Assembly (NCBI GenBank): GCA_030640625.1
Contig: DAOWJB010000060.1
Location: 1-34,492, forward strand
Direction of reading: 5' to 3'
Source: Bacteroides sp.
Lineage (GTDB): Bacteria > Bacteroidota > Bacteroidia > Bacteroidales > SM23-62
Length of the DNA: 34,492 bases
The notes beneath the pieces were generated by a model. The model did no database searches. It was not told where the DNA came from and was given only the letters and a program-made list of their open reading frames with translations. Below are positions 3,936 to 33,461 of the stretch, piece by piece (position 1 is the stretch's first letter; each line of letters begins with the position of its first letter). A program made the translations under genes and the position numbers.

Positions 3936-4069
3936 TGTGCAGGAATTAGCTGTGTTGTAAAATTTAATTGAATCCAAAAATATAAAGTTTTATCAAGATA
4001 TTTAATGAAATGTATAATTACTTCTCCAAATTACTATTTTTGTCACTGTACTCCCCAACAATCAAATCC

Positions 4070-5104
4070 ATGAAAGTCATACGGGAAATATTTGGCAATT
4101 TACCGGGTAAGGCTGATGCAAGCCTGTATACCATTACAAACTCCAATGATGTAACACTGAAAGTATCTGATTATGGGGGCATCATCCAATCCATTCTGGT
4201 GCCTGACAAGAACGGTAAGCCGGGCGATGTGGTACTTGGATTCGACAACCTGGAGGGATATCTGCAGGATCAACCTTACATAGGTACCCTTGTTGGAAGG
4301 TATGCCGGCAGGATTGCAAAAGGCAGCTTCGTACTGGATGGCACCGAGTACAATTTGGCCCGGAACCATGGCCAGAATCACATTCACGGTGGCATAGTTG
4401 GATTCGACAAGGTACTCTGGCAGGCTTCAGAATTTGCTAATAAAAAGGGAGCCGGAGTTACACTTAAGTACATAAGCCATGACATGGAGGAGGGATATCC
4501 CGGTTTCCTCAGGGTAAGTGTTTCCTATACACTGGATGATGAGAACCAGGTTTGCCTGGATTACCAGGCAAGCACAGATAAGGCCACGCATCTTAACCTG
4601 ACGAATCATGCCTACTTCAACCTGAATGGAGCAGCCGCGGAGATTTATGATCATGAATTAATGATCGCTTCCTCAGCATATGTCGTCACTGATCACGATC
4701 TGATACCTACTGGTGAGATAGGGTCGGTGGAGGGGAGTCCCCTGGACTTCAGGGTCCCCAAACTTATCGGGAAGGATATCCATGAGGTTGAAGGGGGATT
4801 CGATCATTGTTACGTATTGGAAGGGGATGGTAAAGAACCCTTGCTGGCCGCCAGGGTTGTGCATCAGGAAAGTGGAAGGGTCATGGAGACATATACGACA
4901 GAACCCGGTGTGCAGTTTTACAGCTCCAATTTTCTTGCTGGCATTACAGGAAGAGGGGGGATCCCGTACCGGAAACACCTTGCTCTCTGCCTTGAGACAC
5001 AACATTATCCCAATTCTCCGAATATTCCAGGATTTCCTTTAACCATTCTGCGCCCGGGGAAAACTTACAACCAGCGGACAATTTATAAATTTACAACCCT
5101 ATAG
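4070..5104 (+). CDS. galM: Aldose 1-epimerase (galactose mutarotase)
   Basis: Motifs RYAGRIAKGSFVLDG, NHGQNHIHGG, THLNLTNHAYFNL, GGFDHCYVL, TEPGVQFYSSNFL. Start placed at 4070 because a -7-like TATTTTTG lies at 4035..4042, inside the longer ORF. Confidence 0.93.
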   Translation: MKVIREIFGNLPGKADASLYTITNSNDVTLKVSDYGGIIQSILVPDKNGKPGDVVLGFDNLEGYLQDQPYIGTLVGRYAGRIAKGSFVLDGTEYNLARNHGQNHIHGGIVGFDKVLWQASEFANKKGAGVTLKYISHDMEEGYPGFLRVSVSYTLDDENQVCLDYQASTDKATHLNLTNHAYFNLNGAAAEIYDHELMIASSAYVVTDHDLIPTGEIGSVEGSPLDFRVPKLIGKDIHEVEGGFDHCYVLEGDGKEPLLAARVVHQESGRVMETYTTEPGVQFYSSNFLAGITGRGGIPYRKHLALCLETQHYPNSPNIPGFPLTILRPGKTYNQRTIYKFTTL

Positions 5105-9356: not shown

Positions 9357-10514
9357 TTATACCTCCTTTGCTCCGTCACCAACTTCACCCAGGTAGAAAT
9401 CAGGTTTGAGTCCGGTTTTGGCATGATACGCACTACCAACCTCGGTAATGAAACGGTCGATGGCATCTTTATGTACCAGGCTTACGGTACAACCACCGAA
9501 CCCGGCACCTGTCATCCGGGATCCCATCACCCCTTCCACCTTGCGGGCTTCATCCACAAGCGTGTCCAGTTCAATGCCGGTAACTTCATAATCATCCCGC
9601 AGGGAATCATGGGACGCATTCATCATTTCTCCGAACAGTGCCAGGTCAGATTCTTTGAGCGCCTTGACAGCATCAAGTACACGCTGATTTTCCGATACCA
9701 CATGGTGGGCCCGCCTCCTCACTGTTTCATCCGGAATGAGATGTTGCAGGTCAAGAAACCTGGAGAAAGTCAATTCTCCGAGGAAGGAAACCGGTTCAGT
9801 CCTGGCAATTGACTCAACAGAGCTTTCACATTCCGAACGGCGCTCATTGTATTTGGAATCTGTCAGTCCCCTGCGTTTATTGGTATTGGAGATAACGATT
9901 TTATATTCGCCCAGGACAAGGGGCACCTGTTCATAATCCAGGGTGGCACAGTCAAGGTATACTGCATGGTCGGTTTTGCCCATTCCGGAAGCAAACTGAT
10001 CCATAATGCCACAGTTAACCCCAACAAATTCATTCTCTGCTTTCTGGCCTATCTTAATCAGGTCAATCATATTGAGTTGCATATTATACAGTGCATTCAT
10101 AGCCACAGCGGTTACCATCTCAATACTGGCTGAGGATGAAAGTCCGGCTGCATTTGGTACATCACCCGAAAAAAGCAAATCCATTCCTTTCATCTGGAAT
10201 CCTCGCTTTACCAGCTGGTCCATCACCCCGAGGGGATAGTTCACCCATTTTTTATCCTGCCGGGCAAATCCTTCAGCAGGTACACTACAGCGCTGATCGA
10301 AGTTGGTGGTGGCAAAATTGATCTGGTCCGATCCATTTAACCGGACAGCCAGGTATGTTCCGTATTGCAGGGCGCAGGGAAAAACATAGCCACCGTTATA
10401 ATCAGTGTGTTCTCCTATCAGATTCACCCTTCCGGGAGCAAAAAAGGTTCGGCAAACCTGATCCTTTTTGGTATATAGTTCAAAAAATTTCTCATGTAGT
10501 GACTGAACGTCCAT
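9357..10514 (-). CDS. galK: Galactokinase
   Basis: FAPGRVNLIGEHTDYNGGYVFPCAL, GLSSSASIEM, GVNCGIMDQFAS, GSRMTGAGFGGCTVSLV. Confidence 0.97.
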   Translation of the reverse strand: MDVQSLHEKFFELYTKKDQVCRTFFAPGRVNLIGEHTDYNGGYVFPCALQYGTYLAVRLNGSDQINFATTNFDQRCSVPAEGFARQDKKWVNYPLGVMDQLVKRGFQMKGMDLLFSGDVPNAAGLSSSASIEMVTAVAMNALYNMQLNMIDLIKIGQKAENEFVGVNCGIMDQFASGMGKTDHAVYLDCATLDYEQVPLVLGEYKIVISNTNKRRGLTDSKYNERRSECESSVESIARTEPVSFLGELTFSRFLDLQHLIPDETVRRRAHHVVSENQRVLDAVKALKESDLALFGEMMNASHDSLRDDYEVTGIELDTLVDEARKVEGVMGSRMTGAGFGGCTVSLVHKDAIDRFITEVGSAYHAKTGLKPDFYLGEVGDGAKEV

Positions 10515-10675: not shown

Positions 10676-11335
10676 ATGTTCAGGATAATCAGGGATAACA
10701 GTCTGGGTTTTGTTTTGTATGCTGTATTGCTATTTGCGGGATTTTTACTGGTGGCAGCAGTGCCAAGGCTGGAATTGCATGTTTTACTGAACAGCGGCCA
10801 TACCAGATCACTGGATATATTCTTCAGGCAGCTCACGCTGCTTGGGAATGGCTGGTTTGCAGTTATTTTTTCGATGCTGTTCCTCTTTATCCGGTTCAGG
10901 TTTTTTTTTATGTTGATTTTGTCATACAGTGTATCCGGACTGATGGCACAATTCCTGAAAAGGGTAATATTTCCGGATGTGCTGAGGCCGGCAGCATTCC
11001 TGGATCAGATGCCCGGACTGGACCTGGTGCCTGGGGTTGATCTGCATCATACCTTAAGCTTTCCCTCAGGGCATACTACCACCGTCTTCGCTATCCTGCT
11101 GCTGACCGGATTCATTCTCAACAGAAAATATGCAGTATTTGGATTGATGTTTCTGGCCTGGCTGGCAGGAATGTCAAGGGTTTACCTGTCCCAGCATTTC
11201 CTGATCGATGTTTTGGGAGGATCCATCCTCGGAGTTTTTTCAGCTTTGTTTTTTTATTGGTATTTTAGAAAATCAAAATCTTCATGGCTTGACCAATCAT
11301 TGACAGGTATAGCAAGGAGGAAAATTTACAAATAA
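10676..11335 (+). CDS. PAP2-family membrane phosphatase
   Basis: KRVIFPDVLRP, FPSGHTTTVFAI, SRVYLSQHFLIDVLGG, multiple TM segments. Confidence 0.9.
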   Translation: MFRIIRDNSLGFVLYAVLLFAGFLLVAAVPRLELHVLLNSGHTRSLDIFFRQLTLLGNGWFAVIFSMLFLFIRFRFFFMLILSYSVSGLMAQFLKRVIFPDVLRPAAFLDQMPGLDLVPGVDLHHTLSFPSGHTTTVFAILLLTGFILNRKYAVFGLMFLAWLAGMSRVYLSQHFLIDVLGGSILGVFSALFFYWYFRKSKSSWLDQSLTGIARRKIYK

Positions 11336-11338
11336 GAA

Positions 11339-13015
11339 GTGCTCAAAGAACGGCCCATCATTACTGAAATACTGATCGCACTTGGCGCGCTGGTATTGTT
11401 TGTTCCTTTCCTGGGTGGGGTTCACCTGTTCGACTGGGACGAGATTAACTTTGCCGAATCTGCCAGGGAGATGATCCTGACAGGTAACTTTCTTACCGTA
11501 CATATTGACTTTGAACCATTCTACCAGAAACCCCCACTCTTTATCTGGATGCAGGTATTGTCCATGAAGCTCTTCGGGATCAATGAATTTGCAGCCAGGT
11601 TTCCGAATGTGATCTGCGGAATGATCACCCTGGTGGTTCTTTACCGGACCGGGAGGAGGATCTACGACACCGGGTTTGCATGGTTCTGGGTACTCAGCTA
11701 CATCGGTACCATACTGCCTTTTTTGTATTTCAAATCAGGCATTATAGATCCCTGGTTCAACCTTTTTATCTTCACATCCCTGCTGAATCTGATCCGCTTT
11801 CTGGATGCAGAAAGAGGTGAAAAACGCTGGCAAAACCTGGTTCTTTCCGCTGTTCTTCTTGGAATGGCCAACCTGACCAAGGGTCCCGTTTCCCTCTTAC
11901 TGTTTGGCTTGACCGTAGGTGTATTCTGGGCCGTAAACAAATTCAGGTTAAGGATCCTGTGGAGTGAGATCCTCCTATTTCTGCTCATGCTCGTAATGGT
12001 TGGCGGTTTATGGTTCTTTATTCAGGTAGCCATTGGGAACTTCAGCGTGATCCTTGATTTTATCCGGTATCAGATACAGCTTCTCAGAACTGAAGACTCC
12101 GGTCATGGCGGATTTCTGTTCTACCATTTTGTCGTTTTGTTAGCAGGCGTATTTCCGGTTTCAGTTTTTGCACTCAAGGCATTTCGCAGGAGCTATTATG
12201 ATGCCAATTCCCAGAAACGCTTTAAACGCTGGATGATCATTCTTTTCTGGGTGGTCCTGCTTATCTTTTCACTGGTGAAAACAAAAATCGTTCACTATTC
12301 GTCCCTCTGCTACCTGCCTTTAACTTTCCTTGGAACCTACGTGATCTATAAGATCATTCACGAGAGGATAAAGAATTACCGTTGGCTGAATATCATTTAT
12401 GCAGTGCTTGGCATGATCATCGGGCTTGCATTTGCCATCATCCCCATACTTGCATCAAGAATAGATGATATCCTGGCATTGGGATATTTCCCGGACCCGT
12501 TTACCCAGGCGAATTTAAAAGCAGATGTTTATTGGAGTGGTTTCGAGGGACTGATCGGGCTGCTGTTCATTCTCGGGATCATTACAAGCCTTGTCCTGCT
12601 GAGGAAAAATAAAAAAATCGCATACTATGCCATGCTTCTCAATGTAACCCTTTTCATAAACCTTGCCTTGTTTTTCACAGCCGGGAAAATTGAGGGTTAT
12701 TCACAGCATGCACTGATCGAATTCTGCAAAGAAAGAAAGGGGGAGGATGGCTATGTACATACCCTGGGAATGAAAAGTTATGCACATTTGTTTTATACGG
12801 CCAAGCCCGTCCCTGAAAATGAGCAATCCCAGGATCTTGACTGGTTACTCAAAGGAAAAATTGACAAGCCGGCGTATTTTATTTTACGCAGTAAAACCCT
12901 GGAGCACTTCCAGCAATCGAATCCTGAACTGAACCTGCTTTACGAGAAGAATGGATTTTCCTTTTGCATACGGGAACCTGGTAATGATAACGGTAATAGA
13001 GTAACATATGATTAA
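11339..13015 (+). CDS. GT39 / ArnT-PMT-like polytopic glycosyltransferase
   Basis: GTG start; FDWDEINFAESAREMILTGNFLTVHIDFEPFYQKPPLFIWMQ is the N-terminal acidic-motif loop of the ArnT/PMT fold; ~12 hydrophobic segments. Confidence 0.9.
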   Translation: MLKERPIITEILIALGALVLFVPFLGGVHLFDWDEINFAESAREMILTGNFLTVHIDFEPFYQKPPLFIWMQVLSMKLFGINEFAARFPNVICGMITLVVLYRTGRRIYDTGFAWFWVLSYIGTILPFLYFKSGIIDPWFNLFIFTSLLNLIRFLDAERGEKRWQNLVLSAVLLGMANLTKGPVSLLLFGLTVGVFWAVNKFRLRILWSEILLFLLMLVMVGGLWFFIQVAIGNFSVILDFIRYQIQLLRTEDSGHGGFLFYHFVVLLAGVFPVSVFALKAFRRSYYDANSQKRFKRWMIILFWVVLLIFSLVKTKIVHYSSLCYLPLTFLGTYVIYKIIHERIKNYRWLNIIYAVLGMIIGLAFAIIPILASRIDDILALGYFPDPFTQANLKADVYWSGFEGLIGLLFILGIITSLVLLRKNKKIAYYAMLLNVTLFINLALFFTAGKIEGYSQHALIEFCKERKGEDGYVHTLGMKSYAHLFYTAKPVPENEQSQDLDWLLKGKIDKPAYFILRSKTLEHFQQSNPELNLLYEKNGFSFCIREPGNDNGNRVTYD

Positions 13016-13751
13016 AGATAGAAGGATAGCCGTAGTTATGCCTGCCTATAATGCAGAGAGGACCCTGGAAGCTACGTTCAGGGAGATCCCCTTTGATATT
13101 GTGGATCACGTTATCCTGGTCGATGATAAGAGCAGTGATCAAACGGTAAAGGTGGCAAGGGGCATGGGCATAAAGCATATCATAGAACACGATGAAAACA
13201 AAGGTTATGGAGGAAATCAGAAGACCTGTTATTTGACTGCACTTGATCTCAAAGCTGATATTGTTGTGATGCTTCATCCTGATTACCAGTATGATCCGAG
13301 ATTGATCCATTCCATGTGCTACCTGATTGCGAACGGTGTTTACGAGGTAGTCCTTGGTTCCCGGATCCTGGGCAGGGGAGCATTGAAAGGCGGGATGCCC
13401 CTGTATAAGTATATTGCTAACCGTTTTCTGACACTGTTCCAGAATTTTCTTACCAGGCAGAAATTATCAGAATATCATACAGGCTACCGTGCTTTCTCGG
13501 CCAATGTCCTGCAGGGGATAAATTTTCAGGTAAATTCTGATGATTTTGTATTTGATAACCAAATGCTGGCCCAGATCTTTTATGCCGGATTTGAAATTGC
13601 AGAAATTACCTGCCCGACCAAGTATTTTAAAGAAGCATCATCCATTAATATCAAAAGAAGTATCAGATATGGACTGGGGGTCATGGGTGTCTCCATCCGT
13701 TATTTTCTTGCGAAGACGGGAATTGTTAAAAGCAAAATATTCATCAATTAA
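13008..13751 (+). CDS. GT2 glycosyltransferase (DPM1/polyprenyl-phosphate-sugar-synthase-like)
   Basis: IAVVMPAYNAERTLEATFREIP, ILVDDKSSDQTV, NKGYGGNQKT, MLHPDYQYDP, GYRAFS; overlaps the end of the GT39 gene by 8 bp. Confidence 0.92.
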   Translation: MIKDRRIAVVMPAYNAERTLEATFREIPFDIVDHVILVDDKSSDQTVKVARGMGIKHIIEHDENKGYGGNQKTCYLTALDLKADIVVMLHPDYQYDPRLIHSMCYLIANGVYEVVLGSRILGRGALKGGMPLYKYIANRFLTLFQNFLTRQKLSEYHTGYRAFSANVLQGINFQVNSDDFVFDNQMLAQIFYAGFEIAEITCPTKYFKEASSINIKRSIRYGLGVMGVSIRYFLAKTGIVKSKIFIN

Positions 13752-13764
13752 AGTAGATATCACT

Positions 13765-14760
13765 GTGATCATTCGTACAAAATCCTATCCAAGGGCAGCA
13801 TTGCTGGGAAATCCCTCGGATGGCTACTATGGCAAAACCATTGCCTTTCTTTTTAAGAATTTCTCTGCCAATGTGATCCTGTATGAGACACCTGAGCTGG
13901 AGATACTGCCGGCTGATTATGATTCAAATGTATTCGATAGCATCTCAGAGCTGAACGAAGATGTAGTATTATTTGGTTATTACGGTGGCATACGGCTTCT
14001 AAAGGCAGCGGTTAAACGGTTCTATGATTATTGCATGAAGGAAGAAATCAAACTCCATAATCGAAATTTCACCCTGCGGTATTCTTCGGATATTCCTTAC
14101 CGGCTTGGACTGGCAGGGTCAAGTGCGATCATTACAGCATGCATCAGAGCCCTCATGGAATATTACCAGGTTGAGATCGAACCATACAAAATGGCCAACC
14201 TTGTCCTGTCGGTTGAAACAGATGAACTGGGTATTGGAGCCGGACTCCAGGACAGGGTAGCCCAGGCCTATGAGGTACCTGTGTTTATGGATTTCAACAG
14301 GGAGATCATGGAATCACGGGGCTACGGCATTTATGAACCCATTGAAAGAAAATATCTGAAAAACCTGTATATCGCCTATCAGAATGATCTTTCAGAAGGT
14401 TCTGAGGTGGTTCATAATGATTTCAGGGAACGATATAACTTTGGTGTCAGGGAGGTAGTGGATGCCATTGACAGCTGGGCTAATATCACCATCCGGGGCA
14501 AACAGGCCCTGGAGTCAGGAGACAGAGAGGGACTGAAACAGCTGATTGATGAGAATTTTAATCTGAGGAAATCCGTTATGAATATCAGCAACAAAAACAT
14601 TGATATGGTGGAACTTGCCAGATCAACCGGTGCCTCCGCCAAATTCACCGGTTCCGGTGGAGCCATTATCGGTACTTTTGAGGACGAGAATACATATGAG
14701 CGCCTGAAGGAAAAACTGGGTAAAAACAATATAGCAACCATTAAACCAGAAATTTTATAA
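13765..14760 (+). CDS. GHMP kinase, glucuronokinase-like
   Basis: RAALLGNPSDGYYGKTI, FGYYGGIRLLKAAVKRFYDYCMKEEIKLHNRNFTLRYSSDIPYRLGLAGSSAIITA, LGIGAGLQDRVAQAY, AKFTGSGGAIIG. Start placed at GTG 13765, after the GT2 stop; the supplied ORF start (13540) lies inside GT2 in another frame. Confidence 0.85.
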   Translation: MIIRTKSYPRAALLGNPSDGYYGKTIAFLFKNFSANVILYETPELEILPADYDSNVFDSISELNEDVVLFGYYGGIRLLKAAVKRFYDYCMKEEIKLHNRNFTLRYSSDIPYRLGLAGSSAIITACIRALMEYYQVEIEPYKMANLVLSVETDELGIGAGLQDRVAQAYEVPVFMDFNREIMESRGYGIYEPIERKYLKNLYIAYQNDLSEGSEVVHNDFRERYNFGVREVVDAIDSWANITIRGKQALESGDREGLKQLIDENFNLRKSVMNISNKNIDMVELARSTGASAKFTGSGGAIIGTFEDENTYERLKEKLGKNNIATIKPEIL

Positions 14761-14772
14761 GCAGTTCACATC

Positions 14773-15648
14773 ATGTTCAGAATTAATAAAGCAGTTATCC
14801 CGGCCGCCGGGTTCGGAATACGTTTTCTTCCTGCGACCAAATCACAGCCCAAAGAGATGCTTCCCATAGTCGATAAGCCCACCATCCAATATGTGGTAGA
14901 AGAGGCTGTCGAGGCTGGTATTACTGATATCCTGATGATCATAGGAAAAGGTAAAAGGGCCATTGAAGAGCATTTTGACAGGAACATGGAACTCGAATAC
15001 CAGCTGGAAGAAAAGAAACAATACGAATTGCTCGAGGAGATACGCTCCATTACCCAGCTGGCGGATATTCATTTCATCTGGCAGAAAGAATTAAGCGGGC
15101 TGGGTGATGCGATCAGGTATGCCCGCCATCATGTTAATAACGAGCCTTTTGCCATCCTGCTGGGCGATACGCTGATAGATAGCAGTTTTGGATCTGTCAC
15201 CAGGCAACTGATCGAGGTATTCAGAAAATACAAAGGTTCTGTCGTGGCCCTGGAAGAAGTTGACCGGGAGATGGTAAGCAGATATGGGATTATTGACGGA
15301 TCGGAGGTTGAAGAAAATGTTTTCAAAGTTTCAGACTTCATTGAAAAACCATCTGTCGAGGAATCCCCATCGAACCTGGCCATTGCCTCAAGATATATCT
15401 TCACCCCTGATATCTTTAATTACCTGCAACGTGTACAACCTGGCAAGAATAATGAGATCCAGCTGACAGATGCCATGCATTTGATGCTGCAGGATCATCA
15501 GATGTACGGTTTGAAATTTGACGGTATCAGGTATGATATAGGTAACAAACTGGATTTCTTGAAAACGAATGTGATCTATGGTTCGAAAAGAGAGGACCTG
15601 GGTGCTGATTTCCTTGTGTGGCTGAAACAATTTGTTGATAATCAATAA
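14773..15648 (+). CDS. galU: UTP--sugar-1-phosphate uridylyltransferase (GalU family)
   Basis: KAVIPAAGFGIRFLPATKSQPKEMLPIVDKPTIQYVVEEAVEAGI, LLGDTL, EIQLTDAMHLML, RYDIGNKLDFLKTNV. Confidence 0.93.
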   Translation: MFRINKAVIPAAGFGIRFLPATKSQPKEMLPIVDKPTIQYVVEEAVEAGITDILMIIGKGKRAIEEHFDRNMELEYQLEEKKQYELLEEIRSITQLADIHFIWQKELSGLGDAIRYARHHVNNEPFAILLGDTLIDSSFGSVTRQLIEVFRKYKGSVVALEEVDREMVSRYGIIDGSEVEENVFKVSDFIEKPSVEESPSNLAIASRYIFTPDIFNYLQRVQPGKNNEIQLTDAMHLMLQDHQMYGLKFDGIRYDIGNKLDFLKTNVIYGSKREDLGADFLVWLKQFVDNQ

Positions 15649-15703: not shown

Positions 15704-17068
15704 ATGAAGAAGACACTTAAAATCCTGAATGGAATGCTTATTATGGCTCTATTCATTGCTTCCTGTGTGACAGAACCCTGGACACCCCTGTTCAATCCCA
15801 ATAACCTGGATGATTTCACACAGCTGGGTGGCGAGGCTATTTATGAATTGGAGGATGGCGTGATCATCGGGACAACGGTAGCCAGTACCCCAAATAGTTT
15901 CCTGAGTACGAAAGAGATGTATGGAGATTTTATCCTCGAATTCAAGGTCATGGTTGACACCCTGTTAAATTCTGGTGTCCAGATCCGCAGTAATTCCTAT
16001 CTCAACGGAAGGGTGCATGGATACCAGGTGGAGATTGATCCATCACCCAGGGCTTATAGTGCTGGTATATATGATGAGGCACGAAGAGCCTGGTTGCATG
16101 ATCTTTCGGAAAACGAGGCCGGCAGGAAGGCATTTAAGAATGGGAAATGGAACCTGTACCGGGTAGAGGCCATTGGCAATACTATCAAGACCTGGATAAA
16201 TGGGGTCATGTGTGCCAACCTGGTGGACGAGGCAGACGACAGTGGATTTATTGCCTTTCAGGTTCATAGTGTCAATGCAGAGGAAAATCCTGCGACAGTG
16301 GGTGTGCAGGTGAAATGGAAAAATGTCCGGATCATGACTGAAGACCTGGAAAATTATCGTTTCAGGGGAGAGGATCCCATACCTGCTAAAGAGGTATTAC
16401 TTACGAATCAACTGACAAAAGCCGAAAAAGCCGATGGCTGGGAGATGCTGTTTGATGGTAAGTCCACCGAAAAATGGAGAGCTGCCCACAAAGAAACATT
16501 TCCCGAAAAAGGGTGGACAGTAGAGAATGGCTTGCTGGCATTGCATGCAGAGAGTGGAGGGGAATCCACCGAAGCCGGAGACATTGTTACCCTGGAACAA
16601 TTTTCAGATTTTGAGCTGAACCTGGAATTCAACATCACACCCGGCGCGAACAGCGGAATAAAGTATTTTGTCACAGAAGGGGAAAAGACTGAAGGTTCTG
16701 CCATCGGCCTGGAGTATCAGATACTGGATGATGAGAAGAATGAGGATGCCAGTAATGGCATAGACGGTAACCACACCGTTGCTTCACTTTATGACCTGAT
16801 CCCGGCAGGGGAAAAATATGTCAGGGAACCCGGACAATGGAACATGGTTAGGATCGTCTCCAAAGACCGCAAAGTGGAGCACTGGCTGAACGGAAGGAAA
16901 CAGTTTGAATATGAACGTGGATCAAAGGCATTCAGAGACCTGGTTGCGATCAGTAAGTATAAGGTCTGGGAGAATTTTGGAGAGGCGGATGCCGGATATA
17001 TTCTGCTGCAGGAGCATGGACATGATGTTTTTTTCAGGAATATCAAGATTAAAAGGCTCAAACCTTAA
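15704..17068 (+). CDS. Lipoprotein with two tandem DUF1080 (3-keto-disaccharide hydrolase) domains
   Basis: Lipobox FIASC; first domain WTPLFNPNNLDDFTQLGG...SGVQIRSN...VHGYQVEIDP; second domain WEMLFDGKSTEKWRA...NSGIKYFV...GLEYQILDDE...DLIPAGEKYVREPGQWNMVRIV. Confidence 0.9.
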   Translation: MKKTLKILNGMLIMALFIASCVTEPWTPLFNPNNLDDFTQLGGEAIYELEDGVIIGTTVASTPNSFLSTKEMYGDFILEFKVMVDTLLNSGVQIRSNSYLNGRVHGYQVEIDPSPRAYSAGIYDEARRAWLHDLSENEAGRKAFKNGKWNLYRVEAIGNTIKTWINGVMCANLVDEADDSGFIAFQVHSVNAEENPATVGVQVKWKNVRIMTEDLENYRFRGEDPIPAKEVLLTNQLTKAEKADGWEMLFDGKSTEKWRAAHKETFPEKGWTVENGLLALHAESGGESTEAGDIVTLEQFSDFELNLEFNITPGANSGIKYFVTEGEKTEGSAIGLEYQILDDEKNEDASNGIDGNHTVASLYDLIPAGEKYVREPGQWNMVRIVSKDRKVEHWLNGRKQFEYERGSKAFRDLVAISKYKVWENFGEADAGYILLQEHGHDVFFRNIKIKRLKP

Positions 17069-17087
17069 ATATTAAACAAATCATGTT

Positions 17088-18200
17088 ATGAAGGACACAC
17101 AAAGAATCCAGACAAAACACTTTCAACTGACCCTGCTGATAACTGCCGTGGTAATCCTGGGAAGCTGCGGCTCAAAACAAAAACAGGTAAGCGACGATTC
17201 GGAATCATCCCTTAAGAAGGGGGTGGTCCTGGTTGATTACCGTGAAAAGCATAAGGTGGATATATTTATTGATGGAGATTTGTTTACATCGTACATCTAT
17301 CCCACGGATCTTGAAAAACCTGTCCTGTTTCCCATTCGTGATGCAACGGGGACAATCATCACCCGGGGCTTCCCGCTTGATCCGAGAGAAGGGGAAAGGG
17401 TAGATCATCCCCACCATGTGGGTTTGTGGTTTAATTTCGGTGATGTGAATGGTTATGACTTCTGGAATAATTCAAAAGCCATCCCGGAAGAGAAGAAGGG
17501 GCATTATGGCCGGGTCTTGCACCGGGGCGTAAAACGTGCTGAAAGCCGTGATGACGGGGGCGTACTTGAAATTGCAGCTGACTGGCAGGTGCCGGGTGAG
17601 GAGGACAGATGGCATACCGTACTGCAGGAACAAACCATATTCGAGTTCAGCGGTGATGAAGATACCCGCAGCATAGACCGGATCACCCGTCTGACCGCCC
17701 AGGAAGATCAGGTTGTATTCACCGACAACAAGGAAGGATTGTTTGCTGTACGATTAGACAGGGCATTCGAGTATCCATCAGATAAACCGCAGATCTATAC
17801 GGATACTGATGGCAATCCCACAGCGGTTAAAGTCATGGATAATAAGGGCAAGAACGGTCACTACAGGAATAGCGAAGGGGTGGAAGGAACAGAAGTATGG
17901 GGCAAAAGGGCTGTGTGGACTTCCTTATCATCCAACGTGGGGGATGAGGATATTACCATAGCCATCTTTGATCATCCGGATAACCCGCAACATCCTTCCT
18001 TCTGGCATGCCCGGGGTTATGGATTATTCGCGGTAAATAACCTTGGAGCTGTTGTATTTGATGAAAATAATGAACCATTCAGGTTGGAACTTGCCCCCGG
18101 TGAATCTATCGTTTTCAAACACAGGGTCTATATTACATCCTGGTATCATGCCTCGGATGAGCAGCTGAATACACAGTTTGCCGATTTCAGCAGGAAATAA
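17088..18200 (+). CDS. PmoA-like / DUF6807 family lipoprotein
   Basis: ILGSCGS lipobox; YIYPTDLEKPVLFPIRDATGTIITRGFP, DHPHHVGLWFNFGDVNGYDFWNN, WGKRAVW, HARGYGLFAVN. Confidence 0.85.
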   Translation: MKDTQRIQTKHFQLTLLITAVVILGSCGSKQKQVSDDSESSLKKGVVLVDYREKHKVDIFIDGDLFTSYIYPTDLEKPVLFPIRDATGTIITRGFPLDPREGERVDHPHHVGLWFNFGDVNGYDFWNNSKAIPEEKKGHYGRVLHRGVKRAESRDDGGVLEIAADWQVPGEEDRWHTVLQEQTIFEFSGDEDTRSIDRITRLTAQEDQVVFTDNKEGLFAVRLDRAFEYPSDKPQIYTDTDGNPTAVKVMDNKGKNGHYRNSEGVEGTEVWGKRAVWTSLSSNVGDEDITIAIFDHPDNPQHPSFWHARGYGLFAVNNLGAVVFDENNEPFRLELAPGESIVFKHRVYITSWYHASDEQLNTQFADFSRK

Positions 18201-20425: not shown

Positions 20426-21328
20426 ATGAGAAACGCACGAAAAAGAGAGAAAATAAGCCGGTTAATAATTATTGGATTGCTTGTTATTGCAGGTATAAAC
20501 TCCTGCAAACCAGACAACAAATTTACAGATAGCAAGGCAGAAAGGCCCAGGAATATTATTTTGATGATCGGGGACGGAATGGGCGTGGCCCATGTCTATG
20601 CCGGACTGACTGCCAACGGTGGTCATCTGAACCTGGAAAGCTGCCAGTATGTTGGATTTCAAAAAACACACTCTGCCAGTTCCTATATAACTGATTCCGG
20701 AGCCAGCGGCACAGCCATGGCAACCGGCAAGAAAACTTTCAACGGAGCCATTGCCGTGGACACAAGCGGGAACAGCGTTAAAACCATTCTCGAAATGGCA
20801 GAAGATGAGGGCCTGTCTACCGGCCTGGTTGCCACCAGTACCATCACTCATGCCACCCCGGCTTCTTTTGTAGCTCATAACCCCGACCGGGGCAAATACG
20901 AAGAAATTGCCCAAGATTTCATAGGGGCCGGTATTGAAGTAATCATCGGAGGTGGCAGGTATCACTTCAATAAGCGTGAAGATGGACTGGACCTGCTTGA
21001 ACAGTTAAAGGAAGACGGGTACCTGGTAACTGACCAGATCGAAAGGGTGGATCAGGGTCATCAGGGCCCCATTGCCGTATTCACAGATTCACTCTCTATG
21101 CCACCAGCCTTAAAAGGCAGGGGCGATCTATTGCCACGGGCAACTGAACTGGCCATTGAAAGCGGCCATATGGAGTCCGGGGAGGTTGCCGGAATATTTG
21201 GTACGGACGGCCATACGGGTGTCATGGTCCCGGTGTTTGCATATGGACCGGGAGCGGAAAAGTTTGCCGGGATTTATGAAAATACCGATATCTTTAAGAA
21301 GATGGCCAGTTTACTGGACCTGGAGTAA
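20426..21328 (+). CDS. Alkaline phosphatase (PhoA family), apparently with an internal deletion
   Basis: IILMIGDGMGVAHVYAGL, ITDSGASGTAMATGKKT, ITHATPASFVAH, IIGGGRYHF, GTDGHTGVMVPVFAYGPGAEKFAGIYENTDIF; the region carrying the remaining metal ligands is absent. Confidence 0.88.
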   Translation: MRNARKREKISRLIIIGLLVIAGINSCKPDNKFTDSKAERPRNIILMIGDGMGVAHVYAGLTANGGHLNLESCQYVGFQKTHSASSYITDSGASGTAMATGKKTFNGAIAVDTSGNSVKTILEMAEDEGLSTGLVATSTITHATPASFVAHNPDRGKYEEIAQDFIGAGIEVIIGGGRYHFNKREDGLDLLEQLKEDGYLVTDQIERVDQGHQGPIAVFTDSLSMPPALKGRGDLLPRATELAIESGHMESGEVAGIFGTDGHTGVMVPVFAYGPGAEKFAGIYENTDIFKKMASLLDLE

Positions 21329-21338
21329 TTTCCTCAAG

Positions 21339-22304
21339 ATGCCTCAGACTGTTAAATTCAATTCTCTTTCATTGCTGATGGTTTTGCTTCCGGTACTATT
21401 TATTGCCGGATGTAATATCACAGGGAAACCTGCAAAAGAGAATGGTCACGGGAATAAACCCGAATTGATCCTCCATACTGATTACCTCGATCAGATATTG
21501 CTTGAGAATTCAGGTTTGGTCTGGTTCCGGAATAAATTATGGGCCATTAATGACAGCGGGGGAGAACCGGTGCTGTTTGCCATTGATATGCAAACAGGCA
21601 AATGTATTCAGGCCATTTATATTGATGGTGCAATAAACAGGGACTGGGAAGAATTGGCACAGGATGAGAATTTTATATATATTTTTGATATTGGTAATAA
21701 TTATGGACGCAAGAAAGAACTCACCATTTACAAGGTCTTTAAGGACTCCATCCCGTTCTCCGGAAACGCCAGGATAGCACCTGAAATCATTCACTATCGA
21801 TACGGCGATATGGAGAAAAACAACGGGTTTCTCTCCAGGAGTCCATATGACTGCGAGGCTGCATTTGCGCTACATGATAGTTTGTACATTTTTACAAAAG
21901 ATTGGGTAGATCAGCACACGACACTTTACATCTGCCCTGCCAGTCCGGGTTCATACACCCTATGGCCGGTTAAAACCTATGAGGCAGACGGACTGGTAAC
22001 AGGGGCAGACATCAGTCCGGATAGCAGTTTTATTATGCTGATCGGCTATAAGGATTATGTTCCTTTTGTCTGGGAATTCCGGGATTTTAATTTTACCAAT
22101 TATACCATGGGATCTGCCAGACGGCTGGATTTTCCCGAATATTACGACCTTCAGACGGAAGGAATTGCCATTCAAACAGCTAAGAGGATCTATATATCCT
22201 GTGAAATGTCCTCATTGCCTGCCTCTGTTTATACTTTGAATTTGGGGATTATATTCGGTGAAGGTCATAATTCTGGTATAATTTCTGTACGTCCTGTATA
22301 TTAA
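21339..22304 (+). CDS. Hypothetical lipoprotein, probable beta-propeller
   Basis: Start placed at ATG 21339 (MPQTVKFNSLSLLMVLLPVLFIAGC), giving a lipobox; the longer ORF start (21156) lies inside the phosphatase gene. Confidence 0.75.
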   Translation: MPQTVKFNSLSLLMVLLPVLFIAGCNITGKPAKENGHGNKPELILHTDYLDQILLENSGLVWFRNKLWAINDSGGEPVLFAIDMQTGKCIQAIYIDGAINRDWEELAQDENFIYIFDIGNNYGRKKELTIYKVFKDSIPFSGNARIAPEIIHYRYGDMEKNNGFLSRSPYDCEAAFALHDSLYIFTKDWVDQHTTLYICPASPGSYTLWPVKTYEADGLVTGADISPDSSFIMLIGYKDYVPFVWEFRDFNFTNYTMGSARRLDFPEYYDLQTEGIAIQTAKRIYISCEMSSLPASVYTLNLGIIFGEGHNSGIISVRPVY

Positions 22305-30135: not shown

Positions 30136-30334
30136 GGTATGATAATTATGATTTGGATGAATATAAAATTGGCTGTTTCAATTTGAGGGATTGAAAGAAT
30201 TTAATAAGATAAATACAGGTGTTAAAACCTCTTTTTCTAATACTCTTTTGCAAAAAACCACAGTCTTGGCAGAAACCACAAAATTATAATTTAATCACAG
30301 AATTTGTTATGTCCGATAACGTTTTTTGCACGAT

Positions 30335-30366
30335 ATGCGTACATAACATGTTAAGAGCTATATTTG
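30335..30366 (+). promoter_or_regulatory. Bacteroidota-type promoter upstream of the GH3 fusion gene
   Basis: TTTG (30335-30338) - 20 nt - TATATTTG (30359-30366), full match to TTTG-N19-21-TAnnTTTG. Confidence 0.65.
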
Positions 30367-30395
30367 CTATGAGAGATTTCAGATTTTCATGGAGT

Positions 30396-33300
30396 ATGCG
30401 TTTCCAGAGGACGATTTATAATTTTTTGGTAATTCTGGCCAGTATACTGGTTACTTCCAGCTTTCATTTCCGGCCAGAATTTGGCCATTCACAGTCAGAA
30501 AGGCTCGATCCCCCCTTTCTGGATTCAACAAATGCCTGGGTTGATTCTGTATATGAATCTCTCTCAAAAGATGAGCGAATCGCCCAGCTGTTCATGGTCA
30601 GGGCTTATTCCAATAAGGATCCCGGACATGCGGAATCCATCCTGAAACTCATAAAAAAATACAATATTGGAGGATTATGTTTCTTCCAGGGCGGACCGGT
30701 CCGGCAGGTTAAGCTTACCAATTTGTATCAGGCAACAGCCAAAACACCCCTTATGATCTCCCAGGATTTTGAATGGGGACTAGGAATGCGGCTTGACAGT
30801 GCTCTTTCTTATCCCAGGCAGATGATGCTGGGGGCTATTCAGGATGAAAGGTTGATTTATCAAATGGGACTTGATATTGCTGCACAAATGAGGATGATTG
30901 GTGTTCACATGAACCTGGCACCGGTACTTGATGTCAACAACAATCCCCGCAATCCGGTGATCAATAGCCGGTCCTTTGGTGAAGATGTTCAAAATGTAAG
31001 CCTGAAAGGCCTTGCCTATTTCAAAGGTTTACAGGATGGAGGTGTATTGTGTACAGCAAAACATTTCCCCGGTCACGGGGATACGGATTCAGATTCCCAT
31101 TATACCTTGCCGATAATCCCGCATGATGCCAAACACCTCTGGTCCACCGAGTTTTACCCCTTCCAGGAGGCAATTCATCAGGGCCTGACCGGGGTAATGA
31201 TCGCACATCTGCATCTGCCGGCGCTGGATACCACCACCAACCTTGCATCTTCCTTATCGAAGAATATCGTTACGGGCATCCTGAAAGAGGAAATGGGTTT
31301 TAAGGGACTTGTGGTGACCGATGCCCTGGATATGGCAGCTGCGGATAAATTTCATAAACCAGGCGATCTGGAAGCCCTGGCTTTTGAGGCTGGTAATGAT
31401 ATCCTGATGATCCCATCTGATATTGGCAAGGCTATCAATGCCATCAGAAAGAAAATCCGCAAGGGTGATATTACCTGGGACAGGGTAGAGGAGAGCTGCA
31501 AGAAGATCCTGGCTGCAAAATACTGGGTAGGCCTCGCAGAGATTAAACAATTGGAAACCGGTAATTTGTATGAAAACCTGCACAAAAATGAGTATCGATT
31601 AACCCAATCCAGGCTGGTCCATGCTGCCCTGACGCTGGTTGAAAACAAGGATGACCTCATTCCGGTCAGGAGACTTGATACACTGAAGATTGCATCAGTT
31701 GCAATTGGGAGTACTGATAAAAACGAATTCCAGGAGTACATTGACCTGTATTTACCTGCAACACATTTTAATATTCCCGGGAATGCTCCTGCTGATGCCT
31801 TTATTAAGTTGTTGAATAAGCTTGATTCTTTTAACCTGGTGATAGCCGGTCTGCATAATACGGATATGAGGGTGTCCAGGAACTATGGCATATCAGAAAA
31901 TTCAGTGTTGTTCCTGAATATGCTGTCAAAGCTGAAACCGACCATTGCCTGTGTATTCGCGAACCCTTACAGTCTTGGCAGGTCATCTTTCGGGGAACAA
32001 TTCGCGGGATTGATCATGTGTTATGAGGATAACGATCTGACTCAGCGGGCTTGTCCCCAGCTTATCTTCGGTGGCACCCCGGCCACCGGTAAGCTTCCTG
32101 TAAGCTCCGGTGAACAATACGTTTCGGGAGCAGGCATCACCACCAGAGAGACATTCCGACTCAGATACGGTCTGCCTGAAGAAGCAGGTATTGACTCCAG
32201 ACAATTATATAAAATAGATTCATTGGCCCTGGATGCCATCCAGGTCAAGGCGACTCCAGGTTGCCAGATCCTGGCAGCCCGCAATGGACTGGTTTTTTAT
32301 AATAAGGCCTTTGGCTACCATACCTATTCCAGGAAAATACCTGTCAAAAAAACCGATTTATACGACGTAGCCTCGGTTACAAAAATTGCTTCAACCCTCC
32401 CCATTTTGATGCAGCTCACCCAGGAAGGCAAGTTTGATGTAAACGACAGCCTGGCAGATTACCTGCCTGCCCTGGATACCTGTGATAAAGGGGATCTGCT
32501 GATCAAGGAAATACTGACCCACCAGGCAAGGCTTATCCCGTGGATCCCATTTTATTATTCCACCATTGAACCACTGGATGTAGATGCACCTTTGATCAGT
32601 AAAAAACTGTCAAGCAGGTATCCGTTCAAACTCTCCAATCATATTTACCTGAATAAGAACCTGACTTATATGGATAGCGTTTATGCGAGAGAATACTCAG
32701 CTGACTTTCCTGTACAGGTAGCAGAAAACCTCTTTATAAATAAATCATACCGTGACAGCCTGATCCACTGGATTATCAATTCGGAGTTGCTTGAAAAGAA
32801 AGAATACCTGTACAGTGACCTGGGTTACTATTTTTTCCACGAGATTATCGAAGACCTAACGGGTACTCCCATTGAGACTTATGTTACTGATCAGTTTTTC
32901 AAACCATTAGGCGCATCTTATACAGGTTACCTGCCACTTCTCAGATTTTCAAATGAGCGAATTGTGCCAACGGAAAATGACTTGGTTTTCAGGAGACAAT
33001 TGATACAGGGATACGTACATGATCCGGGAGCAGCCATGCTTGGCGGTGTCGCCTACCATGCAGGTATTTTTTCCAACACCAATGACTTGGCCAAGATCAT
33101 GCAGATGTACCTCAATGGTGGCAGCTATGGTGGACAACAGTATATTGATCCAGCTATTGTGGATATGTATAATTCCAGTCCCTATTTGAGAAAAGGGAAC
33201 CGCAGAGGCATCGGATTTGATAAGCCTGAAATGGATTTCGAAAAAGAAGGACCAACCTGTCAATGTATTTCAGCATCCAGCTTCGGCCATACCGGATTTA

Positions 33301-33461
33301 CGGGCACCCTGGCATGGGCTGATCCCGAATCCGGCATTCTCTATGTTTTCCTTTCAAACAAGATCCATCCAGACCAGGATAATTCAAAGCTGGTTGAGAT
33401 GAATGTACGAACCAAAATTCAGGAAGTGATCCATGCCGCAGTGATAGAACCGGATATATAA
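30396..33461 (+). CDS. GH3 (beta-N-acetylhexosaminidase-like) fused to a serine hydrolase/class C beta-lactamase-like domain
   Basis: KHFPGHGDTDSDSHYTLP, VVTDALDMAAADKF (GH3/NagZ); ASVTKIAST (SxxK), YSDLGYYFFHEII, FGHTGFTG (beta-lactamase fold). Start moved to MRFQRTIYNFLVILASILVTSSF (signal peptide), downstream of the promoter; supplied ORF starts at 30219. Confidence 0.88.
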   Translation: MRFQRTIYNFLVILASILVTSSFHFRPEFGHSQSERLDPPFLDSTNAWVDSVYESLSKDERIAQLFMVRAYSNKDPGHAESILKLIKKYNIGGLCFFQGGPVRQVKLTNLYQATAKTPLMISQDFEWGLGMRLDSALSYPRQMMLGAIQDERLIYQMGLDIAAQMRMIGVHMNLAPVLDVNNNPRNPVINSRSFGEDVQNVSLKGLAYFKGLQDGGVLCTAKHFPGHGDTDSDSHYTLPIIPHDAKHLWSTEFYPFQEAIHQGLTGVMIAHLHLPALDTTTNLASSLSKNIVTGILKEEMGFKGLVVTDALDMAAADKFHKPGDLEALAFEAGNDILMIPSDIGKAINAIRKKIRKGDITWDRVEESCKKILAAKYWVGLAEIKQLETGNLYENLHKNEYRLTQSRLVHAALTLVENKDDLIPVRRLDTLKIASVAIGSTDKNEFQEYIDLYLPATHFNIPGNAPADAFIKLLNKLDSFNLVIAGLHNTDMRVSRNYGISENSVLFLNMLSKLKPTIACVFANPYSLGRSSFGEQFAGLIMCYEDNDLTQRACPQLIFGGTPATGKLPVSSGEQYVSGAGITTRETFRLRYGLPEEAGIDSRQLYKIDSLALDAIQVKATPGCQILAARNGLVFYNKAFGYHTYSRKIPVKKTDLYDVASVTKIASTLPILMQLTQEGKFDVNDSLADYLPALDTCDKGDLLIKEILTHQARLIPWIPFYYSTIEPLDVDAPLISKKLSSRYPFKLSNHIYLNKNLTYMDSVYAREYSADFPVQVAENLFINKSYRDSLIHWIINSELLEKKEYLYSDLGYYFFHEIIEDLTGTPIETYVTDQFFKPLGASYTGYLPLLRFSNERIVPTENDLVFRRQLIQGYVHDPGAAMLGGVAYHAGIFSNTNDLAKIMQMYLNGGSYGGQQYIDPAIVDMYNSSPYLRKGNRRGIGFDKPEMDFEKEGPTCQCISASSFGHTGFTGTLAWADPESGILYVFLSNKIHPDQDNSKLVEMNVRTKIQEVIHAAVIEPDI

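Follow-up and report, generated by a model that had tools for sequence, protein, structure and literature searches.

Two adjacent genes in the 34,492-nucleotide stretch of Bacteroides sp. DNA analysed here (the window) encode a GHMP sugar-1-kinase of a distinct, glucuronokinase-like family and a GalU-family uridylyltransferase. The genes belong to one operon, and in our sample of Bacteroidota the two occur in exactly the same genomes, nearly always side by side. We consider it likely that they constitute a dedicated salvage unit converting glucuronic acid (GlcA) via GlcA-1-phosphate to UDP-GlcA, in the window's family probably feeding three genes located upstream (Table 1). In this unit the kinase would phosphorylate free D-glucuronic acid at C1 at the expense of ATP, and the GalU-family enzyme would combine the resulting GlcA-1-phosphate with UTP to give UDP-glucuronic acid. 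We infer GlcA as the substrate of the kinase, and UDP-GlcA as the product of the pair, from the lines of evidence given below.

Table 1. Genes of the five-gene cassette in the window, with the evidence used for each assignment
Gene product	Position	Strand	Length	Basis of assignment
PAP2 phosphatase, LpxE-like	10676..11335	+		PF01569; best PDB match LpxE 6EBU, 1.1e-10
PMT/ArnT-like GT-C glycosyltransferase	11339..13015	+		PF13231 (PMT_2); only PDB match ArnT 5EZM, 1.6e-16
GT2 glycosyltransferase, polyprenyl-phosphate sugar synthase-like	13008..13751	+		PF00535; best PDB match dolichyl-phosphate mannose synthase 5MLZ, 3.5e-8
GHMP sugar-1-kinase, glucuronokinase-like	13765..14760	+	331 aa	GTG start; Pfam, family alignment, tree, AlphaFold
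GalU-family UTP:sugar-1-phosphate uridylyltransferase	14773..15648	+	291 aa	TIGR01099; co-occurrence; residues G131, A205, I256

The reading frame of the kinase is uninterrupted from its GTG at 13765 to the stop at 14760. A longer frame of 406 aa opens at 13540 and overlaps the GT2 gene; the additional codons are a mechanical extension, since the alignments of relatives begin at the first residue of the 331-aa form. The first-pass annotation had described a GHMP kinase with several long glucuronokinase-type motifs, and this description was borne out: both Pfam domains scored above cut-off (GHMP_kinases_N, 5.5e-12; GHMP_kinases_C, 2.7e-7), and the motifs RAALLGNPSDGYYGKTI, GYYGGIRLL, LHNRNFTLRYSSDIP...GLAGSSAII and LGIGAGLQDRVAQAY are present and conserved in relatives. 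These relatives, found in Bacteroidota and Hydrogenedentota, align over the full length with 48–79% identity, and 46 of the 335 columns in an alignment of 48 sequences are invariant, many of them inside the motifs listed. Further features are a catalytic-type Asp (D163), a family-specific Arg (R164) and the motifs GLAGSSA and FTGSGGA. Both the kinase and GalU are single-copy in the window genome.

The best NCBIfam match of the kinase was the model for HddA, the D-glycero-D-manno-heptose kinase (NF049969), whose cut-off of 600 bits it missed with a score of 62.7. The models for mevalonate kinase (62.1 bits, cut-off 163) and galactokinase (40.3 bits, cut-off 443) did not reach their cut-offs either, and the galactokinase signature domain GalKase_gal_bdg was not found in the kinase by Pfam search. 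An AlphaFold model of the protein was confident (pLDDT 90.2), and a fold search with it matched mevalonate, heptose and galactose kinases alike; the fold therefore does not name the substrate. The tree, which took in galactokinase-type paralogues from the same genomes together with HddA and mevalonate kinase as represented in the PDB, united the kinase family in a single clade (SH-aLRT 99) set off by a long branch of length 3.8, with galactokinases, HddA and mevalonate kinase all falling outside it. Grouping with heptose or mevalonate kinases, the outcome that had been named beforehand as speaking against a glucuronokinase, was thus not seen.

As plant reference we used a sequence of 362 aa which we take to be Arabidopsis glucuronokinase. 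This presumed glucuronokinase is 39% identical to the window kinase over the full length, and up to 47% identical to its relatives. On the profile of the kinase family the same presumed plant sequence scored 335 bits, whereas HddA reached 66 bits, mevalonate kinase 54 and no other GHMP paralogue more than 26. The presumed plant sequence has 40 of the 46 family-invariant residues, and a quick tree method placed it inside the kinase clade, on a long end branch. We treat this match as a strong lead on the identity of the family and not as a test of it. R164 adjoins D163 and is retained in what we take to be the plant enzyme, whereas HddA has Gln at this place, and we suggest R164 as a candidate ligand of the substrate carboxylate. 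Plant and fish glucuronokinases have been described as unusually similar, and the fish enzyme is strictly GlcA-specific, glucuronic acid being the only substrate accepted (PMC3938481).

It is improbable, but conceivable, that the pair consists of a sugar-1-kinase and a uridylyltransferase for some other sugar (galacturonate, arabinose, a heptose or a modified hexose), with another UDP-sugar as the product. The indifferent fold matches, HddA as the best NCBIfam hit and the long end branch of the presumed plant sequence would all agree with this, whereas the position of HddA, galactokinase and mevalonate kinase outside the clade that contains the presumed plant glucuronokinase argues against it. 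The lipid A uronic acids known from gene sets such as the one upstream of the pair are galacturonic, not glucuronic (PMC7663294), which would also suit another sugar. Against galacturonate in particular, Arabidopsis galacturonokinase has been reported to be very different from glucuronokinase in sequence (PMC3938481).

The GalU gene starts 12 bp past the kinase stop; the two are separate reading frames with stops between them, and do not form one polypeptide. With 368.3 bits on TIGR01099, GalU passed the equivalog cut-off of 326.8. It contains the Pfam domain NTP_transferase, and its nearest solved relatives are GalU/YngB. Among 398 Bacteroidota genomes, drawn evenly, the kinase profile matched 11 and the TIGR01099-type GalU model likewise matched 11, and the two lists were identical (G000, G120, G178, G234, G242, G249, G266, G274, G309, G318 and G401). 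The naive chance of such identity is about 1e-21, a figure whose weight is lowered by relatedness among the genomes; eight genera are involved. When nearer relatives and named MAGs were added, GalU directly adjoined the kinase in every checkable case except G249, in which both genes are present on different contigs; in another genome, G006, galU is broken across two contigs. The order of the genes varies, with galU first in family f77 and the kinase first elsewhere, and Rufibacter tibetensis has the pair on a mobilizable plasmid. In RefSeq, the Rufibacter kinase WP_062546164 is annotated as 'GHMP kinase' only and its partner as galU. The neighbourhood pointed out by the first-pass annotation in a single genome is kept in relatives far beyond chance, and its conservation across Bacteroidota, which had been put forward as a check, was confirmed.

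The kinase and GalU almost certainly work as one unit in Bacteroidota. The identical genome lists, the adjacency in both orders and the plasmid copy together show that the Bacteroidota GalU travels with the kinase and is its dedicated partner, which is not how a housekeeping UDP-glucose enzyme would behave. It is very unlikely that this GalU is a plain UDP-glucose pyrophosphorylase and the kinase an unrelated neighbour supplying GlcA-1-phosphate or another sugar phosphate elsewhere. Such a housekeeping role would fit with the equivalog cut-off being passed and with the enzyme being the sole GalU of the window genome, in which no UDPGP-family pyrophosphorylase was found. It is at odds with the 387 of 398 Bacteroidota genomes that lack such a GalU, the holders being exactly those that hold the kinase, with an adjacency that stays while the gene order flips, and with the presence of the pair on a plasmid. 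Nearly all of the tested Bacteroidota with the kinase lacked a UDPGP-type pyrophosphorylase that might have served as an alternative partner. Among the sampled genomes without a TIGR01099 GalU, which make up most of the 398, nearly all those tested were also without the UDPGP family.

The sequences of the GalU enzymes suggest that they may be specialised. Position 205 (window numbering) is Ala in all 19 GalUs from kinase-bearing genomes and Ile, Val, Met or Asn in 10 other GalUs. Likewise, 19/19 have Gly131, as part of GDT or GDS, and Ile256, each of these residues being in the minority among the 10 others. Positions 205 and 256 presumably line the sugar pocket or are close to it, as judged by alignment to RmlA. 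In the GalU tree the kinase-linked enzymes were scattered in the best topology, and a single origin for all of them was neither supported nor rejected (p-AU 0.35); we do not claim convergent recruitment.

With regard to the place of the pair in metabolism, the first-pass annotation had predicted a salvage route to a UDP-sugar and had set it against the usual bacterial synthesis of UDP-GlcA by UDP-Glc dehydrogenase. The first part of this prediction is in keeping with the conserved kinase-GalU unit. The second part did not hold: UDP-sugar-dehydrogenase homologues were present in the window genome and, of 19 further genomes with the kinase that were tested, in 18 (19/20 in total), and the idea that the pair replaces an absent UDP-glucose dehydrogenase was rejected. 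The salvage route would therefore be an addition. Through these homologues UDP-GlcA could arise independently of the pair, which counts against the explanation that we prefer. Free GlcA could be provided by polysaccharide breakdown; the Mariniphaga loci around the pair contain a GntR regulator, an aldose epimerase, a galactokinase and a GH2 hydrolase. Four kinase-bearing Bacteroidota (G309, G249, G242 and G459; loci L182-L188) encode myo-inositol oxygenase, with scores of about 365 bits on PF05153, as against 0 of 14 control genomes; it was not found in the window genome. In those four genomes it would complete a plant-type route to UDP-GlcA, and in at least two of them its neighbour is, from reading of the sequence, what we take to be a sodium-solute symporter-like gene. 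The window itself also holds an aldose 1-epimerase (4010-5104, + strand) and a true galactokinase (9357-10514, - strand) near the pair, and in G048 and Mariniphaga, too, a galactokinase is close to the pair, hinting at a wider sugar-salvage neighbourhood.

The main problem for a simple kinase-GalU model is the Hydrogenedentota, which it does not explain. The kinase was present in 61 of 68 Hydrogenedentota genomes (e.g. G456; L009:2101-3102), whereas a search with the GalU model found GalU in 0 of the 68, and the role of the kinase therefore cannot depend on a GalU partner everywhere. Its conserved neighbour in these genomes is not a sugar gene; from reading its sequence, we take it to be rsmI-like. 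A UDPGP-type enzyme was considered as partner of the kinase and set aside, as the one examined looks like a UDP-GlcNAc pyrophosphorylase. Either the Hydrogenedentota use a different uridylyltransferase, or the role of the kinase is broader. A reading in which the kinase opens a catabolic route, with the UDP-sugar only an intermediate as in Leloir-type pathways, could account for the Hydrogenedentota kinase without GalU beside its presumed rsmI-like gene and for the genes around the Mariniphaga pair, but we regard it as very unlikely, given that UDP-sugar synthesis is indicated both by the strict coupling of kinase and GalU throughout the Bacteroidota sample and by the cassette for envelope glycosylation found in the window's family.

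Returning to the proposed salvage unit in the window, the pair is preceded by the PAP2, PMT_2 and GT2 genes, in this order, all five in the same orientation and either closely spaced or slightly overlapping. This five-gene cassette occurs only in the window's family and in a single further genome, G048, a narrow spread that weighs against the explanation that we prefer. None of the three upstream genes reaches an equivalog cut-off. Their enzyme types, a PAP2 phosphatase, a polyprenyl-phosphate sugar synthase and a GT-C transferase, are those of the LpxE, RgtE and RgtD/RgtF systems to which the addition of galacturonic acid to lipid A is ascribed in rhizobia, Oligotropha and Caulobacter (PMC7663294), and we therefore infer transfer from a UDP-uronic acid to an envelope acceptor. 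By this analogy, the cassette may serve to attach a uronic acid to lipid A or to some other acceptor in the envelope, the least certain step of the scheme. In the window's family the GT2 enzyme would probably load the uronic acid (GlcA, if the upstream genes serve its transfer as we suppose) onto polyprenyl phosphate, the ArnT-like transferase would pass it on to the envelope acceptor, with lipid A as our best candidate, and the LpxE-like phosphatase would clear the phosphate that the uronic acid replaces. Unlike in the LpxE/Rgt systems, the cassette shares one operon with the kinase and GalU, so that its sugar nucleotide could be supplied by salvage. The complete scheme, in which salvaged GlcA is activated by the kinase and a GalU re-specialised for GlcA-1-phosphate and delivered via polyprenyl phosphate to lipid A in place of the phosphate removed by the LpxE-like enzyme, while some related Bacteroidota run from myo-inositol via GlcA to UDP-GlcA (a plant-like route proposed because four kinase-bearing genomes encode myo-inositol oxygenase), is speculative and rather unlikely to be right in all its parts.

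Downstream of the pair, genes for a 3-keto-disaccharide hydrolase (DUF1080) and a DUF6807 protein follow (15704-18200, + strand), and these also lie beside the pair in G048. Farther on, an alkaline-phosphatase gene (20426-22304, + strand) is split into two overlapping reading frames of 300 and 382 aa, only the first of which matches PF00245, possibly through a frameshift or an assembly error; a 1080-aa protein (30219-33461, + strand) has a GH3 domain fused to a beta-lactamase-type domain.

Among known systems, the pair would be a bacterial equivalent of the zebrafish fusion enzyme described below and of plant glucuronokinase (EC 2.7.1.43) with UDP-sugar pyrophosphorylase (USP). The two plant proteins are likewise separate enzymes and carry out the reactions proposed here; the kinases are of the same GHMP family, provided that the presumed plant sequence is what we take it to be. 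The partner differs, being a 291-aa protein of the bacterial GalU type as opposed to the UDPGP-family USP of about 600 aa, and the window genes are adjacent in an operon. HddA/WcbL shares the GHMP fold and a Gly-x-Gln-Asp-type catalytic motif, and a nucleotidyltransferase comes next in HddA's own pathways, but the window kinase is only about 25% identical to it, scores 62.7 as against 600 bits and is separate in the tree. The salvage logic of a GHMP sugar-1-kinase coupled to a nucleotidyltransferase is found within Bacteroidota in Bacteroides Fkp (fucokinase/GDP-fucose pyrophosphorylase), which unlike the window pair is a single fusion protein with GDP-fucose as product; its kinase part came at rank 49 in our fold search, with 12% identity. 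Zebrafish DrGKUP, a glucuronokinase/putative pyrophosphorylase, also joins the kinase to a nucleotidyltransferase, by fusion where the window system has two separate proteins joined by an operon, and its second domain is a shorter nucleotidyltransferase (260 aa) of extremely low activity (PMC3938481), whereas the window partner passes the GalU model.

Glucuronate salvage to UDP-GlcA has been described for plants and some animals, and we found no bacterial glucuronokinase in the open-access literature searched. If the proposed salvage unit is real, it would assign a function to an enzyme family that so far lacks a name, present in almost all Hydrogenedentota but only patchily in Bacteroidota, and would explain why the few GalU-bearing Bacteroidota have a GalU at all. 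The pair would also be a natural kinase/uridylyltransferase set for making UDP-GlcA, in comparison with the fish fusion, whose second activity is barely measurable, and it would raise the question of a bacterial source of the eukaryotic glucuronokinases.
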